Positions 2,795-8,838 of a DNA stretch of 64,000 bases are shown here, in pieces. This DNA comes from Arthrobacter sp. CAN_C5. Its GTDB lineage: Bacteria > Actinomycetota > Actinomycetes > Actinomycetales > Micrococcaceae. Numbering within the stretch: the first letter of the stretch is position 1; every line of letters begins with the position of its first letter. The position numbers and the translations under genes were made by a program. Below the pieces are notes generated by a model that was not told the DNA's origin, made no database searches, and saw only the letters and a program-made list of their open reading frames with translations. Location: NCBI RefSeq assembly GCF_017875735.1, contig NZ_JAGGMZ010000001.1, positions 1,302,001 to 1,366,000 of the forward strand, read 5' to 3'.

Positions 2795-3891
2795 CGTTCG
2801 GCGGTGAGGGTTTCGCTGTACAGATCCAGTAGCGCGGCCATTCCGCCGCCCTCCATCGCCCGGCGCTGCCGTTCAGCGCCCGTCCCGCGCTCCCAGACAG
2901 TCGCCAGGCCAGCGGCGATCCAGTCGGCGTCGCCCTCTTTGTCGACTGCGTCAGACGTGTAGCCCAGCAACCGGTCCATCTGCTCGCGGGCCGGAATCAG
3001 ATCGCCCGTGTGAAGGTCCACCAGGTCTCCGGCCAGTCCATGCCGGGCAGCCTGCCACATGGCCGCATCGAGCAGCTCAGGGTCCGGGTCCAGGAACGGC
3101 AGTCCTGCCTCCGCCTCGCGGATGGCGGTGGATACCAGCCCCCGGACCAGGGCCGCCTGCAGCACCGAATCCTGTGCCTCCAGCTGGGCGTCGCCGGCCC
3201 GCACCTCGAGGGTGGGATACGTGTCGGAGAGCCGCGCCATCCAGGTCAGCACCCCGCGGTCGATGATGACGCCGGTGGCTACCAGCCGTTCAATCCGGCG
3301 TTCGTAGCCGGCGGCATCGGCGAATACCGGGGGGCAGCCCTGCACCGGCCACCGGCGGTAGTGCACCACCCGCCAACTGGCGAAGCCGCTGTCCCGGTCC
3401 AGCCAGAACGGCGAGTTGGTGCTCAGGGCGGTGATGACCGGGAGCCAGGGCCGGATCCGGTTCAAGGCCTGTACCCCGGTTTCCTTGTCCGGGATGCCCA
3501 CGTGCACATGCAAGCCGTTCACGAACTGGTCCGCGACAATACCGCGGGCGCTCGCCCGGAGTTCGTGGTAGCGCTGCTTGTCGGTCAAGGTGGGATACGC
3601 GGACTCGATCCGCGGGGCTGTCGCCGACCCGGTGGCGCGCACCCCGGCCTTCCGCGCCGCCGCGGAGATCCGTCGCCTGAAGTGCAGCAACGATTCCTCG
3701 GCCTCGGTGAGGGTGGTGCAGACCGGCGTCGCAGTTTCCAGCTGGCAGCCCAGGAGCTCACGCTGGATGTCCTCCGCCTCGATCGTCGATGACTGTTCCA
3801 GTAACGCCTGCACCTCGTTGGCCTTATAGACAGGCAATCCCGACGTCGGGTCCAGCAGGAGGTACTCTTCTTCAATCCCCAGCGTTGTCAT
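2791..3891 (-). CDS. Carboxylate-amine ligase, YbdK / glutamate-cysteine ligase 2 family
   Basis: A 366-residue member of the GCS2 family. The N-terminus MTTLGIEEEYLLLDP carries the Glu-rich motif that binds the metal/ATP centre, and HVHVGIPDKETG near residue 130 is the second family motif. The family makes gamma-glutamyl or related amide bonds using ATP. Actinobacteria make mycothiol through MshC, so this paralogue need not make gamma-glutamylcysteine and its substrate is unknown. It is a single gene on the minus strand, back to back with the fluoride riboswitch operon, with 179 bases between its start and the usp start. Confidence 0.88.
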   Translation of the reverse strand: MTTLGIEEEYLLLDPTSGLPVYKANEVQALLEQSSTIEAEDIQRELLGCQLETATPVCTTLTEAEESLLHFRRRISAAARKAGVRATGSATAPRIESAYPTLTDKQRYHELRASARGIVADQFVNGLHVHVGIPDKETGVQALNRIRPWLPVITALSTNSPFWLDRDSGFASWRVVHYRRWPVQGCPPVFADAAGYERRIERLVATGVIIDRGVLTWMARLSDTYPTLEVRAGDAQLEAQDSVLQAALVRGLVSTAIREAEAGLPFLDPDPELLDAAMWQAARHGLAGDLVDLHTGDLIPAREQMDRLLGYTSDAVDKEGDADWIAAGLATVWERGTGAERQRRAMEGGGMAALLDLYSETLTAER

Positions 3892-3970
3892 GTAGTGATC
3901 ATTGCATTTGTTGGCCGGTCGATAATACTGTGACGCGCTGCGGCTCCATCGAGCCGGCGGACCAATCCGC

Positions 3971-3976
3971 TATAGT
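3971..3976 (+). promoter_or_regulatory. Candidate -10 box (TATAGT) of the fluoride-responsive transcript
   Basis: TATAGT lies ten bases upstream of the first base of the fluoride aptamer, so a start near 3982-3984 would begin the RNA almost exactly at the aptamer. No good -35 is visible around 3948-3953. Confidence 0.5.
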
Positions 3977-3985
3977 CGAGGCAAC

Positions 3986-4070
3986 GGCGATGGATCCCGC
4001 CGGGGCCCTGCCCGAACCGCCACAAGGGCTGATGGTTCCCGCCTTGGCACTCGATAGAGGCAGGTACACC
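3986..4070 (+). ncRNA. Fluoride riboswitch (crcB motif) and expression platform
   Basis: The aptamer core reads GGCGATGGATCCCGCC (3986-4001), then AACCGCC (4015-4021), ACAAG, and GGCTGATGG (4027-4035) followed by TTCCCGCC. This is the order of conserved blocks of the crcB RNA: a GGCG/CGCC hairpin whose loop GGATCC can form a pseudoknot with GGTTCC at 4034-4039, a second short GCC/GGC stem, and the invariant CTGATGG. Downstream, GCCT (4041-4044) can pair with AGGC (4058-4061), which contains the GAGG ribosome-binding site before the GTG at 4071, so fluoride probably relieves translational masking. The genes below include two fluoride channels, which supports the assignment. The platform mechanism is inference. 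Confidence 0.9.
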
Positions 4071-4553
4071 GTGAATTCCGTTCGAGGCCCCCTGCTGGTC
4101 GGGGTGATGCCGGGTCAGGACCGGGCGGTTCTCGATACCGCAATCACCCTGGCGCGCGCACTGGACACCACTGTCGCTTTCGTCTACGTCGACCCCGCCG
4201 GGTTCCGGTGGCAGGAGCCCGACGGCGGGGAGCATTTCGCCTCGATCGACCCCGACGTCGAGGACGACGACTCCAGGTCGGCGCACCTCGAATCCGTGCT
4301 CAGCGCCGGACTCGCCGAAGCCGGGATCGGATGGAGCTACCGGGTGGCCCGCGGCGAGGCAGCGCATGAGCTTGCGCAGGCAGCTGAGACGGCGGGGGCG
4401 TTCATGATCGTGGTGGGAGCGCGCCGCCAGACCGTGGCACGCCGGATGGGGAATCTTCTCACAGGTTCGGTGGCCGCCCACCTCGCCCACCACCAGCCAA
4501 CGCCGGTCCTGGTGGTTCCCGCTGCCCCCTCCCATCCGCAGGGTGGGCGCTGA
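4071..4553 (+). CDS. Universal stress protein (single UspA domain)
   Basis: A 160-residue UspA-fold protein starting at GTG 4071 with GAGGCAGG just upstream. LLVGVMPGQDRAVLDTAITLARAL is the N-terminal strand and helix, and VVGARRQTVARRMGNLLTGS followed by PTPVLVVP is the C-terminal nucleotide-binding segment of the family. A longer open frame runs back to 3789, but it crosses the divergent YbdK gene and the riboswitch, so the upstream ATG at 3990 is rejected. It is the first gene after the fluoride riboswitch, and its stop overlaps the start of crcB by one base. It is therefore expected to be fluoride-induced; its own function is unknown. Confidence 0.88.
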   Translation: MNSVRGPLLVGVMPGQDRAVLDTAITLARALDTTVAFVYVDPAGFRWQEPDGGEHFASIDPDVEDDDSRSAHLESVLSAGLAEAGIGWSYRVARGEAAHELAQAAETAGAFMIVVGARRQTVARRMGNLLTGSVAAHLAHHQPTPVLVVPAAPSHPQGGR

Positions 4554-5050
4554 TGCACTCCCGTCCAACCGTGTCCAGTGTGACGACGCCGGCGCCGCTG
4601 GAGCGCCATCCCCATTGGCGACCGGCTCTTCTTCTCCTTGTCTTCCTCGGAGGAATGGCCGGAACCCTGTGCAGATACTGGCTGGAGGGGGTTGTCCCCA
4701 GGCCGTTGGGCCTCCCGCTGCCCACCCTGGCCATCAACTTGGTCGGCGCTTTCCTGCTGGGTCTGTTGCTCGAAGCGCTCCTGCGGACCGGACCGGACCG
4801 TGGAAAACGTCGGTCCGCCCGTCTACTCCTCGGCACCGGGCTGCTCGGTGGTTTCACCACCTACAGTACGTTCGCCATCGAGGCCGTCGGTTTGGGAATC
4901 GACGGGGATCTCGGGTGGGCTGCCCTGTATGTCGGAATCAGCGTGATGGGCGGGATCCTGCTGAGCTTCGCGGGGATCGCCGCAGCGTCGGCGCTGCACC
5001 GACGCCGCGCCAGCCGGCCGCGCCCCCACCAGGGCGGAGCCAGGCCATGA
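4553..5050 (+). CDS. crcB: Fluoride ion channel subunit CrcB/Fluc (first copy)
   Basis: A 165-residue four-helix membrane protein of the CrcB/Fluc family, which exports cytoplasmic fluoride. Family signatures are GGMAGTLCRYWLE in helix 1, NLVGAFLLGLLLE in helix 2 and GFTTYSTFAIE in helix 3, where the Phe-box and the Na+-site region lie. The N-terminal ~25 residues are an extra hydrophilic tail. It shares one base with the usp stop and overlaps the next crcB by four bases (ATGA), so translation is coupled. Gram-positive bacteria often carry two crcB genes whose products form a heterodimer of opposed subunits. Confidence 0.95.
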   Translation: MHSRPTVSSVTTPAPLERHPHWRPALLLLVFLGGMAGTLCRYWLEGVVPRPLGLPLPTLAINLVGAFLLGLLLEALLRTGPDRGKRRSARLLLGTGLLGGFTTYSTFAIEAVGLGIDGDLGWAALYVGISVMGGILLSFAGIAAASALHRRRASRPRPHQGGARP

Positions 5051-5433
5051 GCGTGCTCCTGATACTTCTGGTCGGTGCGGCGGGCGGATGTGGCGCTGTG
5101 ACCCGATTCATGCTGGACGGCGTGGTGAGATCCCGGTTCCGGACAGCCATTCCGTGGGGCACCGTGGCAATTAACGTGGTCGGGTCGGGGCTGCTGGGGA
5201 TCCTGGCCGGGCTGGGCCTGCGCGGTGGCATGCCGCTCGACCCAGAAATGATTGCCGGCGTCGGATTCCTGGGCGGGTTCACTACGTTCAGCACCGCCAG
5301 CATCGAAACCGTCAGACTGCTGCAGAGCGGACGGGTGGGTCGCGGCCTGATCAATGCGATGGGCACCGCCACCCTGGCTCTTCTCGCCGCGGGGGCCGGT
5401 CTGGCCGTCGGCTCTCTACTGGCGGGCGGCTGA
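5047..5433 (+). CDS. crcB: Fluoride ion channel subunit CrcB/Fluc (second copy)
   Basis: A 128-residue CrcB/Fluc protein starting at ATG 5047, inside the end of the first crcB (ATGA overlap). Motifs are GAAGGCGAVTRFMLDG, INVVGSGLLGILAG and GFTTFSTASIETVRLLQ, with four predicted membrane helices. The longer frame that reaches back to 4543 is out of register with the first crcB and is not real. With its neighbour it probably forms the antiparallel Fluc dimer. It ends 14 bases before the stop of the convergent mntR-like gene; no terminator is obvious in that gap. Confidence 0.95.
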   Translation: MSVLLILLVGAAGGCGAVTRFMLDGVVRSRFRTAIPWGTVAINVVGSGLLGILAGLGLRGGMPLDPEMIAGVGFLGGFTTFSTASIETVRLLQSGRVGRGLINAMGTATLALLAAGAGLAVGSLLAGG

Positions 5434-5447
5434 CGCAGCACCCGGGG

Positions 5448-6188
5448 CTACACCCGTGCGGGTTCGGCGAGCCGGCAGCCGGTGTGGACTCCATCCGTCT
5501 CGATCCAGAGCGCCTGGGTCAGCTCCTCGCCGAAGTCGTACGTCCTGGCATCTGCTATCCCACCCACGGCAACCACCAGCGGACCACCGAAGGGTTTACG
5601 CTCCACCACGCGTACCGGTATATCCAGGTCGATGGATTCCGAGGCAAGAAACCGCAGCAGGTCGGGGTTCGCGTCGCTGATCCGCGTAATCCGTCCAGGG
5701 TGGCCGTCGTCAAGATCCTTCAGCAGGTGAGCGGTGGGCAGGGTGATCCTTCCATCAGCGGTGGGGATGGGATCCCCGTGCGGGTCCCGGGTGGGGTGGG
5801 AAAGTTTCCGGTCCAGCCGTTCGATGAAGGTGTCGGAGACCGTATGTTCCAGCAGCTCTGCTTCGTCGTGCACCTCGTCCCAGCTGTATCCCAGCTCGCT
5901 GACCAGAAAGGTCTCCAGGAGCCGGTGCCGGCGTACCATCGCCAGGGCCAGCTGCCGCCCGTCACCCGTCAGCTCCACCGCACCATACGGTTCATGGCGG
6001 GCAAGGCCCAGATCCCTCAGCTTGCGCACCATCTCGGAGACGGAGGAATTCGCCACCGACAACCGGGCGGCCAGCTGCGAGGCTGTGACAGGACGATCCT
6101 GCCATTCGGTGAACGAGTAAATGACCTTCACATAGTCCTGGACGCTCGATGATCCTGCGCTCAGTGTTGCGGCAGTGCGCTTGGCCAT
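5448..6188 (-). CDS. mntR: Metal-dependent DtxR/MntR-family repressor
   Basis: A 246-residue DtxR-family regulator. Residues ~14-75 form the winged helix (VQDYVKVIYSF, TASQLAARLSVANSSVSEMVRKLRDLGL), residues ~80-150 the metal-binding and dimerisation domain (RRHRLLETFLVSELGYSWDEVHDEAELLEH), and the C-terminus an SH3-like FeoA domain. It lies three bases after the permease gene and is the last gene of the importer operon, so it probably represses its own operon when Mn2+ is plentiful. A candidate operator lies at 8854-8867. An Fe2+-sensing IdeR role is possible, but the Mn-type binding protein in the operon favours MntR. Confidence 0.85.
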   Translation of the reverse strand: MAKRTAATLSAGSSSVQDYVKVIYSFTEWQDRPVTASQLAARLSVANSSVSEMVRKLRDLGLARHEPYGAVELTGDGRQLALAMVRRHRLLETFLVSELGYSWDEVHDEAELLEHTVSDTFIERLDRKLSHPTRDPHGDPIPTADGRITLPTAHLLKDLDDGHPGRITRISDANPDLLRFLASESIDLDIPVRVVERKPFGGPLVVAVGGIADARTYDFGEELTQALWIETDGVHTGCRLAEPARV

Positions 6189-6191
6189 GGG

Positions 6192-7109
6192 TCAGGCCCT
6201 TCCTGTCGGTTGCAGCCGGGCCGGTTCTCCGACGTCGTCCGGCGTGGTGGGACGCCGCAACCGACGACGGTTGCCTGCCTGCCAGATGATTCCCGTCCGG
6301 CGGGCGAAGAGGTAGACGAGCACAAAGACGAGCGATTGGGACAGGACCACTGCAGCGCCCGTCGAGATGTCCAGGTAGTAGCTGGCGTAGATACCGGCCA
6401 CCGACGCCACGGTGGTGATGCTCGCGGCGAGGATCAGCATTCGGTCGAAGCTGCGGGTCAGGAGGAACGCCGTTGCACCGGGGGTGATGAGCATAGCCAC
6501 CACCAGGATGATGCCGACGGCCTGCAGCCCGACGACGACGCTCAACGCCATCAGGCCCAGCAGGAGGGTGGACAGAGCCTTGGTGTTCAGCCCGATCACA
6601 TGGGCGTGGGTGCGGTCAAAAGCGAACAACGTCAGATCCCGGCGTTTGTACAACACGATGGCGAGGGTCAGGGCGCCGAGGATGACCACCTGCCAGAGCT
6701 CACCGTCGGTCACGCCCAGGACGTTGCCGAAGAGGATGTGCATCAGGTCCACCTGGGACGGCGTGCGGGACACGATCGCCAGCCCGACGGCGAACAGCCC
6801 GGTGAAGACGACGCCGATCACCGTGTCCGACTTCAGCTTGGTCGTCGATTTCACCACACCGATCAGGGCGACGGCTCCGGCGCCGAAGACGAACGCGCCG
6901 ATCGAGAAGGGGATCCCGATGATGTAGGCCAGCGCAACCCCCGGCAGGACGGCGTGCGAGACGGCGTCGCCCATCAGCGACCAGCCCATCAGGATCAGCC
7001 AGCAGGAGAGCACCGACGCCACCACCGCTGCGCATACCGTGACCACCAGGGCCCGGGTCAGGAAACCATACTGCAACGGTTCGGTCAGGAAGGACAGGAA
7101 TTCCATCAC
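6192..7109 (-). CDS. Manganese-type ABC transporter permease (ABC-3 family)
   Basis: A 305-residue polytopic membrane protein of the ABC-3 family (ZnuB/MntB/SitC). MGDAVSHAVLPGVALAYIIG is the conserved cytoplasmic coupling segment. Many hydrophobic helices follow, and the C-terminal ~30 residues form a basic tail. The start overlaps the ATPase stop by four bases. It forms the membrane channel of the importer encoded at 5448-8838. Confidence 0.92.
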   Translation of the reverse strand: MMEFLSFLTEPLQYGFLTRALVVTVCAAVVASVLSCWLILMGWSLMGDAVSHAVLPGVALAYIIGIPFSIGAFVFGAGAVALIGVVKSTTKLKSDTVIGVVFTGLFAVGLAIVSRTPSQVDLMHILFGNVLGVTDGELWQVVILGALTLAIVLYKRRDLTLFAFDRTHAHVIGLNTKALSTLLLGLMALSVVVGLQAVGIILVVAMLITPGATAFLLTRSFDRMLILAASITTVASVAGIYASYYLDISTGAAVVLSQSLVFVLVYLFARRTGIIWQAGNRRRLRRPTTPDDVGEPARLQPTGRA

Positions 7110-7933
7110 GAATCCTCGTTCTTTTCGGTGGTCGGTGAGGGAGGGCGGGGGCCGGACGCGGCCCCGGGAAGCGGCCCGAACGCGAGCGCCAGCTTTTCAT
7201 GCGTCAGCACCTCTGCGGGCAGGCCATGGGCAAGGACCCGGTTATGCAGGAGCACCGCCTCGTCGCAGAGTTCGGGGATCCCCGCGAGGTCGTGGGTGGA
7301 GATCAGCGCCGTCCGGCCCTCGTCCCTGAGCTCCTTCAGGAGGCTGATCAAGGTGGCTTCGCTGGACTTGTCCACCCCGGCAAAGGGCTCATCCAGGAGG
7401 AGGAGCTGGGCATCCTGGGCGATGCTCCGGGCAACGAAAGCGCGCTTCTTCTGCCCGCCGGAGAGTTCCCCGATCTGCCGGCTACGCTGCGCGGTCAGGC
7501 CCACCCGGTCAAGCGCTTCGTCTACAGCCTCCCGGTCGGCACGGCCGGCCCGGCGGGACGGCCCCATCCGCCCGTACCTGCCCATCAGGACCACATCTCC
7601 CACCGAGAGCGGGAAGGTCCAGTCGACATCCTCCGATTGGGGGACATAGGCCACCATATTGGTGCGCCGTGCGGTGCGGTGGTCCTTGCCGAAGAGTGTC
7701 ACCGTACCCACCGAGGGCTGCACCAGGCCCATCAGGCATTTGAAGAGTGTCGACTTGCCCGATCCGTTGACGCCGATCAGGCCGCAGATCCGTGCCCGCT
7801 CGACGGTCAGGTCAACGTCAATCAGCGCCTGCACCTCGTTGTAGCTGACGTTGAGTCCCGAGACGGACAGCGCGGCCACCGGGTGGAGGTCGGCAGGGGA
7901 GGGCGCAGGGTGTGCGGGGGCGTACCAGCTCAT
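7106..7933 (-). CDS. Manganese-type ABC transporter ATP-binding protein
   Basis: A 275-residue ABC ATPase. Walker A is GVNGSGKST near residue 55, the Q-loop YVPQSEDVDW near 95, the signature LSGGQKKRAFVARSIAQ near 158, and Walker B LLLLDEPFAGVD near 177. The Q-loop sequence with the following VGDVVLMGRYG is typical of metal (Mn/Zn/Fe) importers. Both ends overlap neighbouring genes by four bases, indicating tight translational coupling with the binding protein upstream and the permease downstream. Confidence 0.94.
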   Translation of the reverse strand: MSWYAPAHPAPSPADLHPVAALSVSGLNVSYNEVQALIDVDLTVERARICGLIGVNGSGKSTLFKCLMGLVQPSVGTVTLFGKDHRTARRTNMVAYVPQSEDVDWTFPLSVGDVVLMGRYGRMGPSRRAGRADREAVDEALDRVGLTAQRSRQIGELSGGQKKRAFVARSIAQDAQLLLLDEPFAGVDKSSEATLISLLKELRDEGRTALISTHDLAGIPELCDEAVLLHNRVLAHGLPAEVLTHEKLALAFGPLPGAASGPRPPSPTTEKNEDS

Positions 7934-8838
7934 GGGGCGAGTCCTTCGGTGATCAGTGCAATGTCGTAGCGCAGGAGGTCGAGGAAGGTGGGTACCGGGC
8001 CGTCCGGCCCCGAGAGCGAATCGACATACAGGGGTCCCGAGAGATTCGCACCAGTGGCCAAGGCCACCTGCTCCTGCGCCGAGGGGTTGACTGTCGATTC
8101 GCAGAACACCGTGGGCACCTCGTTGGCCTCGACGAACCCGATCACTTCCTTGATCTGCCGGGGTGTGCCCTCAGCGTCCGAATTGACCGGCCAGATGAAC
8201 GACTCGTAAAGACCGGCATCCCGAGCCAGGTAGGAGAAGGCGCCCTCGCAGGTGACCAGGGCCGGGGTGCCGCCGTCGGCGAAGGCAGCTTGCAGGTCGT
8301 CGAGCATTCCCTGCAGTTCGGCCTTGATCAGCGCACCGTTCGCCTCGAAGTCCCTGGCGTGGGCGGGATCGAGGTCGGTGAGCGCCGCCACGATATTGTC
8401 CACGTAGGTCTGTGCGGCACGGGGGGACATCCAGGCGTGCGGGTTGGCCAGTCCACTGTAGTTGCCGGAGCGGATGTCGACCGGTTCCACACCCTCGGAG
8501 AGAACTGCGCGCGGAGCGTCGACGGCGATCAGGAATCGCTCGAACCACCGTTCAAGACCCAGGCCGTTGTCCAGGATCAGGTCGGCGTCCTGGGCGTTCA
8601 CCAGGTCTGAGGGAGTGGGATCGTAACCGTGGATCTCCGCACCGACCTTCGTGATGGACTCGACCCGGACATGCCCTCCACCGACCTGGTCGGCGAGATC
8701 GGCGAGAACGGTGAAGGTCGTCAACACCATGGGACGATCATCGTCGTCGGCCGGCCTCACCTGGGCTGCCGGACTGGCGCCACAACCGGCGACCGCAAGC
8801 AGCATCGCCAGGACCAGCGGAAGACAATATTTCGGCAT
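7930..8838 (-). CDS. Metal ABC transporter substrate-binding lipoprotein, Mn/Fe type
   Basis: A 302-residue cluster A-I binding protein with a lipoprotein signal (hydrophobic stretch then VAGC, Cys19). Likely metal ligands are His in AEIHGYDPTPSD, His in NPHAWMS, Glu in FCESTVNP and Asp in YVDSLSG. The His-His-Glu-Asp set is typical of Mn2+/Fe2+ binders such as MntC/PsaA, and there is no His-rich loop of the zinc type. The start has TAGGATTTAGG upstream on the coding strand. First gene of the four-gene operon. Confidence 0.92.
   Translation of the reverse strand: MPKYCLPLVLAMLLAVAGCGASPAAQVRPADDDDRPMVLTTFTVLADLADQVGGGHVRVESITKVGAEIHGYDPTPSDLVNAQDADLILDNGLGLERWFERFLIAVDAPRAVLSEGVEPVDIRSGNYSGLANPHAWMSPRAAQTYVDNIVAALTDLDPAHARDFEANGALIKAELQGMLDDLQAAFADGGTPALVTCEGAFSYLARDAGLYESFIWPVNSDAEGTPRQIKEVIGFVEANEVPTVFCESTVNPSAQEQVALATGANLSGPLYVDSLSGPDGPVPTFLDLLRYDIALITEGLAP

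Follow-up and report, generated by a model that had tools for sequence, protein, structure and literature searches.

By the covariance model, the leader of a usp-crcB-crcB operon in Arthrobacter sp. CAN_C5 contains a genuine member of the known fluoride riboswitch class, and it carries C at a base (4040) that is T in nearly all relatives. We favour, on balance, an explanation in which the riboswitch of relatives controls translation of the operon, while the Arthrobacter copy, with C at 4040, would respond to fluoride weakly or no longer and leave expression partly constant. What is new here is this one substitution at the lock base; the element is otherwise ordinary. The window referred to throughout is the whole stretch of DNA that was analysed (64,000 nucleotides, positions 1,302,001 to 1,366,000 of contig NZ_JAGGMZ010000001.1), and coordinates are counted from its first base.

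The aptamer and its operon

A sequence-only reading had placed the leader in the fluoride riboswitch class on the strength of conserved blocks in their proper order. These are present: GGCGATGG at 3986-3993, AACCGCC at 4015-4021 and GGCTGATGG at 4027-4035. The covariance-model check, which had been named beforehand, returned RF01734 at 3977-4048 (+) with a score of 34.7 bits against a curated gathering cut-off of 34 (cmscan of the window, E 6.9e-6). The genome-wide E is 1.0e-7, and the match is the sole one at E <= 0.001 in the 3.86-Mb genome. The class assignment is made because the score reaches gathering, the linchpin base notwithstanding.

The cmscan alignment contains P1 and a second hairpin with the conserved AACCGCC and GGCTGATG blocks. 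The pseudoknot proposed between the P1 loop and a 3' strand likewise stands: GGATC (3992-3996) faces GTTCC (4035-4039) in four standard pairs and one U.U, and 29 of 40 same-family copies share these strands, U.U included (with three of the 40 rows misparsed). The 40 copies are those left after seven of 47 rows – the weakest RF01734 matches – had been dropped beforehand. Compared to Rfam RF01734 (the crcB motif; PMC2864571, accessible text), the window has the same helices and pseudoknot strands in the same order and scores above gathering, but differs in three features: C at the linchpin base, a pseudoknot containing U.U and an added hairpin in the linker, the latter two being common to actinobacterial relatives. 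The linker hairpin varies in length among these relatives; its stem has three or more pairs in 33 of the 36 same-family linkers parsed (three incomplete).

Features of the riboswitch leader and operon (positions in the window).
Feature	Position	Strand	Basis or remark
-10-like box TATAGT	3971..3976	+	sequence; nine bases upstream of aptamer
Fluoride riboswitch aptamer, Rfam RF01734	3977..4048	+	cmscan 34.7 bits, gathering 34
P1 hairpin GGCG-ATGGATCC-CGCC	3986..4001	+	sequence and cmscan alignment
Pseudoknot 5' strand, inside P1 loop	3992-3996	+	sequence and cmscan alignment
Linker hairpin GGGC-CCT-GCCC	4003..4013	+	insertion relative to Rfam consensus (cmscan)
Second aptamer hairpin GCC-ACAAG-GGC	4019..4029	+	cmscan alignment
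Pseudoknot 3' strand GTTCC	4035..4039	+	pairs with 3992-3996 (one U.U); sequence, strands in relatives
C at presumed linchpin position (U48)	4040..4040	+	T in nearly all relatives
Relatives-type Shine-Dalgarno clamp, 4038-4045 with 4057-4064	4038..4064	+	C.A at 4040/4062; predicted -7.8 kcal/mol
Alternative predicted clamp, 4038-4040 left free	4041..4065	+	MFE -9.0 kcal/mol
Shine-Dalgarno arm GAGGCAGG	4057..4064	+	sequence; six bases before GTG 4071
usp, universal stress protein, 160 aa, GTG start	4071..4553	+	Pfam PF00582, E 3.1e-16
crcB1, fluoride channel subunit, 165 aa	4553..5050	+	Pfam PF02537, E 1.4e-26; TGATG overlap with usp
crcB2, fluoride channel subunit, 128 aa	5047..5433	+	Pfam PF02537, E 2.9e-22; ATGA overlap with crcB1

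The -10 box had been taken to set the start of the RNA at the aptamer, and promoter placement in relatives supports this: of 120 distinct copies, 114 (38 of 39 in the same family) have a TANNNT hexamer with its end 5-11 bases upstream of the aptamer, compared to a mean of 5.5 and a maximum of 14 in a shuffled control. A consensus scan of 3850-5520 for a -35/-10 pair found none. Placement of the box in so many copies suggests that the transcript begins at or beside the aptamer, with a predicted start at about 3982-3984; the leader then runs from about 3983 to the GTG at 4071.

The usp-crcB-crcB operon is borne out by three open reading frames with Pfam Usp, CRCB and CRCB matches. Since the genes overlap as TGATG and ATGA, their translation may well be coupled. 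The further claim of two fluoride channels holds as far as there are two crcB genes, but their opposite charge bias points rather to a pair of subunits in a single channel. With helix limits set by hydropathy and eye, lysine and arginine are found in CrcB1 mainly at the N-terminus, at residues 78-90 and at the C-terminus (also R41 and R50), and in CrcB2 mainly at residues 20-32 and 90-99 (also R59). The two also differ in the Phe motif, which reads GGFTTYSTF in CrcB1 and GGFTTFSTA in CrcB2. Converse positive-charge bias is a property of paired Flucs, according to the accessible text of PMC3755343, where La1 and La2 of Lactobacillus acidophilus – the same kind of tandem crcB pair, with the same opposite bias – form a heteromeric channel and work only together. 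The product of the window pair is likely to be one antiparallel heteromeric channel of which CrcB1 and CrcB2 are the halves.

Convergent with the operon, on the reverse strand, lies a region (5448-8838) encoding a DtxR-type regulator (Pfam iron-dependent repressor domains), which adjoins an apparent ABC metal transporter with membrane protein, ATPase and substrate-binding protein, as judged by eye.

The Shine-Dalgarno clamp

Relatives form a clamp between two arms. One consists of the final two bases of the 3' pseudoknot strand together with the six that follow; the other includes the Shine-Dalgarno sequence. Examples are CCTACCTT with AAGGTAGG, CCTGTCTC with GAGACAGG and CCTGTCCG with CGGATAGG. 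The two arms of this clamp covary. Among 37 unique same-family copies (39 of the 40 parsed, G015 left out, kinship ignored), pairing of each copy's own arms averages 7.27 of 8, compared to 6.73 (SD 0.09) when arms are swapped between copies, and none of 5,000 swaps reached the observed mean; shuffled downstream sequence gives a mean of 5.33. The window's own score of 6.5 is matched or undercut by seven of the 36 other copies. A clamp with covarying arms supports the proposal that pairing hides the ribosome-binding site, and the GCCT/AGGC pairing put forward for the window is possible: GCCT (4041-4044) can face AGGC (4058-4061) or AGGT (4062-4065).

Because the arms covary, and because no terminator-like site was found in 3850-5520, the platform of the relatives is most likely one of translational control. 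Translational fluoride riboswitches occur in other bacteria. A transcription-terminating riboswitch of the Bacillus cereus type, the platform treated in the accessible texts of PMC13273304 and PMC11077080, is highly improbable here: the same scan led us to reject a terminator, and the 3' arm of the clamp coincides with the Shine-Dalgarno sequence and lies six bases from the start codon. Four copies in Cellulomonas, Cellulosimicrobium and Sphaerisporangium records (L077, L084, L088 and L119) appear by eye to have another platform, in which GGGCAGG has two alternative candidate partners, the tail and a CTGCCCGC located downstream; this might be a three-way switch.

Translational control could operate as follows. 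RNA synthesis would begin at the aptamer. As long as fluoride is absent, the Shine-Dalgarno arm would be paired with the last part of the 3' pseudoknot strand and the six bases behind it, keeping the first gene off. Fluoride would lock the pseudoknot via the A40-U48 linchpin, whereupon bases 46-48 would leave the clamp and the site would open; the two channel genes would then be translated by way of their stop-start overlaps.

The base at 4040

Base 4040 directly follows the pseudoknot strand, and we take it to be position 48 (U48) by T. petrophila numbering. Under a strict pattern, which fixed the core and left the base after the strand free, 112 of 114 distinct copies have T here; the two others are the window, alone in having C, and L139, with G (the set overlaps the same-family set, and kinship is ignored). 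The sequence-only reading had passed over this departure. For the same-family set itself the figure is 37 of 39 parsed copies; besides the window, the one other C belongs to G228 (L062), a copy of ambiguous register. Four GGTTTCC copies entered this count with their additional base taken as part of the strand. Seven of nine class-level copies displayed read T, while L182 and L188 read GGCTTCC-T and share the one-base ambiguity of G228. An extra base is indeed found in several copies, as GGTTTCC-T in four of the same family and as GGCTTCC-T in G228, L182 and L188. Because T follows CC in each, we read these copies as bulged; an unbulged reading would put C at 48. Given such copies, conservation of base 48 may be less strict than 112 of 114 implies.

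Two side observations concern this part of the element. One is L139, a Cryobacterium zongtaii copy with its riboswitch at about 3945-4010: compared with close relatives, what follows the strand looks as if a stretch had been deleted, bringing other sequence to linchpin and clamp. The copies L031, L032, L058 and L062, which precede an MFS protein, have an extra-base or changed 3' pseudoknot strand (GGTTTCC or GGCTTCC) and are possibly a sub-type.

The A40-U48 pair is the linchpin, the main lock of the fluoride riboswitch, and in vitro a U48A mutant no longer reaches the stably docked, fluoride-locked state (PMC8752731, accessible text, in which U48C does not appear). With C at 4040 the window departs from this pair at one highly conserved base, which is no curated criterion of class membership. 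The intact switch assumed by the sequence-only reading is thus not supported: the base is T in nearly all other copies, and the same change weakens the predicted clamp. C at 4040 creates a C.A with 4062 and so breaks a clamp pair, and the best predicted clamp of the window reaches -9.0 kcal/mol, compared to -12.5 to -14.1 kcal/mol in G145, G339 and G322 (all clamp energies and folds were computed without pseudoknot, Mg or fluoride). Overlap of the clamp arm with the 3' pseudoknot strand is clear in relatives, whereas the best predicted clamp of the window is the non-overlapping one, although only 1.2 kcal/mol separates it from the overlapping form (-7.8). The predicted cost to the clamp of keeping bases 46-48 unpaired is 0.0 in the window, compared to 5.4 kcal/mol as the median of 38 unique copies. 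No more than 6% of 200 shuffles reach the cost in 29 of the 38, and it is below 1 in four (the window, G056, G216 and G228). A partition-function fold of the leader points the same way. Predicted pairing probabilities for the Shine-Dalgarno arm of the window are 0.22 for the tail, 0.30 for the linker and 0.33 for other sites, leaving 0.14 unpaired. Tail pairing lies between 0.51 and 1.0 in 32 of 33 further leaders that could be placed (0.18 in G113, where the wrong arm was picked; six of the 40 leaders were unplaced and several linkers mis-picked).

Because both competing states would lose a pair, and because the best predicted clamp spares the pseudoknot bases, a weak or lost response to fluoride is to be expected; working regulation by the window copy is doubtful. 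Loss might go further. If the weak clamp left the ribosome-binding site open, the operon would be expressed with or without fluoride, which we consider possible but less than probable: the difference in clamp energy is in line with it, and so is the genus, where 37 of 38 genomes have crcB and only six have RF01734 (32 of 38 without a match), yet the Shine-Dalgarno arm is still predicted to be mostly paired.

A serious rival to weakened switching, if in our estimate an unlikely one, is normal function: C48 and A40 could pair adequately and the C.A clamp still form, so that both states are weakened to about the same degree and the set point is kept or moved. A comparison that bears on this is with the sister genome G145, which shares promoter placement, aptamer, clamp layout and gene order with the window (as do other actinobacterial usp-crcB-crcB operons), but its linchpin base is T and its clamp reaches -12.5 kcal/mol, where the window has C and -9.0. 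The two differ at 252 of 992 fourfold sites in seven genes (25%), with protein identities of 87% for usp, 83% for crcB1 and 89% for crcB2. Despite this divergence, aptamer differences before 4040 in the leader alignment are confined to linker and loop bases, and the core thus appears to have been kept under selection for most of the time that separates the two; the change at 4040 may be recent, or else tolerated or compensated. An otherwise intact core, intact usp, crcB1 and crcB2 genes, a relatives-type clamp that still forms at -7.8 kcal/mol and extra-base copies that may likewise be without U48 are all consistent with normal function. Against it stand the near-invariant T, the removal of the locked state by pair disruption in U48A (PMC8752731, accessible text) and a predicted coupling of docking to clamp of 0.0.

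In a variant of this idea a natural riboswitch would work without A40-U48, either by an A-C pair or by a clamp re-registered on the linker bases CCTGCC (4007-4012). The basis of the re-registered clamp is the 0.30 predicted pairing of the Shine-Dalgarno arm with the linker, and we regard the variant as improbable. There is, finally, a small chance that the natural base at 4040 is T and that the C arose in sequencing or assembly. The base is read from a single assembly, with no conspecific copy for comparison; but that assembly is one contig with a completeness of 100, and other leader bases, such as 4047 and 4066, are also specific to the window in a four-way alignment. We continue to favour a weakened or lost response, and the caveats of register and kinship leave these odds as they were.

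Distribution and meaning

RF01734 matches at E <= 0.001 are found in 36 of 395 genomes of the same family (28 above cut-off) and in 25 of 394 genomes of the class (12 above cut-off). An actinobacterial-core pattern finds 102 stretches in GTDB contigs, and the 80 titles listed among them are all of organisms that we take to be actinobacteria. Genes within 4.5 kb downstream were identified by tblastn with 14 queries. Exactly usp-crcB-crcB follows 14 of the 40 same-family copies, the window included, and 39 of 84 further actinobacterial copies from GTDB contigs; because the same gene order recurs in this way, the operon behind the riboswitch is a fluoride-export operon of an ordinary kind, common among soil bacteria. 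Other cargo comprises phosphoglycerate-mutase-like proteins, enolase, pyrophosphatase, MutS-like pairs and an MFS protein (Pfam names from one member each). A comparable arrangement is described in the accessible text of PMC5533749 for Enterobacter cloacae FRM, whose fluoride-induced operon also has RF01734 upstream and contains uspA and crcB; it differs in that the riboswitch lies before ppaC and that the operon adds enolase and phosphoglycerate mutase.

Individual copies vary in their genes. In the congener G322 (L054, 8075-8209) the usp match behind the riboswitch spans only 45 aa and both crcB matches are full; in G339 (L034) usp gives no match, and the riboswitch is followed by crcB. Usp seems dispensable. 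A stretch of 5.3 kb in one contig (L046, G076) has three RF01734 matches and looks like a fluoride-resistance island; of the three, one precedes a pyrophosphatase region, one precedes PGM-enolase-usp-crcB-crcB, and one is cut off at the contig end. In four same-family genomes (L059, L060, L061 and L063) the riboswitch match precedes a pair of MutS-like ATPases by tblastn, one member of the pair matching Pfam MutS_V; the riboswitch match in L059 is below the Rfam cut-off. The accessible text of PMC2864571 named mutS among crcB-motif genes in 2010.

A diverged riboswitch before the crcB pairs of congeners was considered and rejected: one crcB pair was taken from each of 20 riboswitch-less congeners, with 3.4-4.0 kb of sequence, and neither a riboswitch by a loose core pattern nor a usp by tblastn turned up there. 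Nor was there any sign of mobile origin. A plasmid search with a 1476-base query gave 14 records, none covering 80% and all inside 751-1403, the crcB part; a phage search gave no match, and a loose aptamer pattern found none in viral contigs. Vertical descent is not thereby proven.

A literature search yielded, among the matches listed, no title on actinobacterial usp-crcB-crcB riboswitches or on a natural U48 variant. The same-family set provides a covariation-backed translational platform for the actinobacterial branch of a class for which the survey in PMC13273304, in its accessible text, deals with terminators. Within that branch, a changed lock base together with a conserved core and intact genes lends itself naturally to testing whether cells need the linchpin or can get round it. 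Should the window copy indeed switch without A40-U48, the logic of the switch would have been re-made after loss of its lock base.
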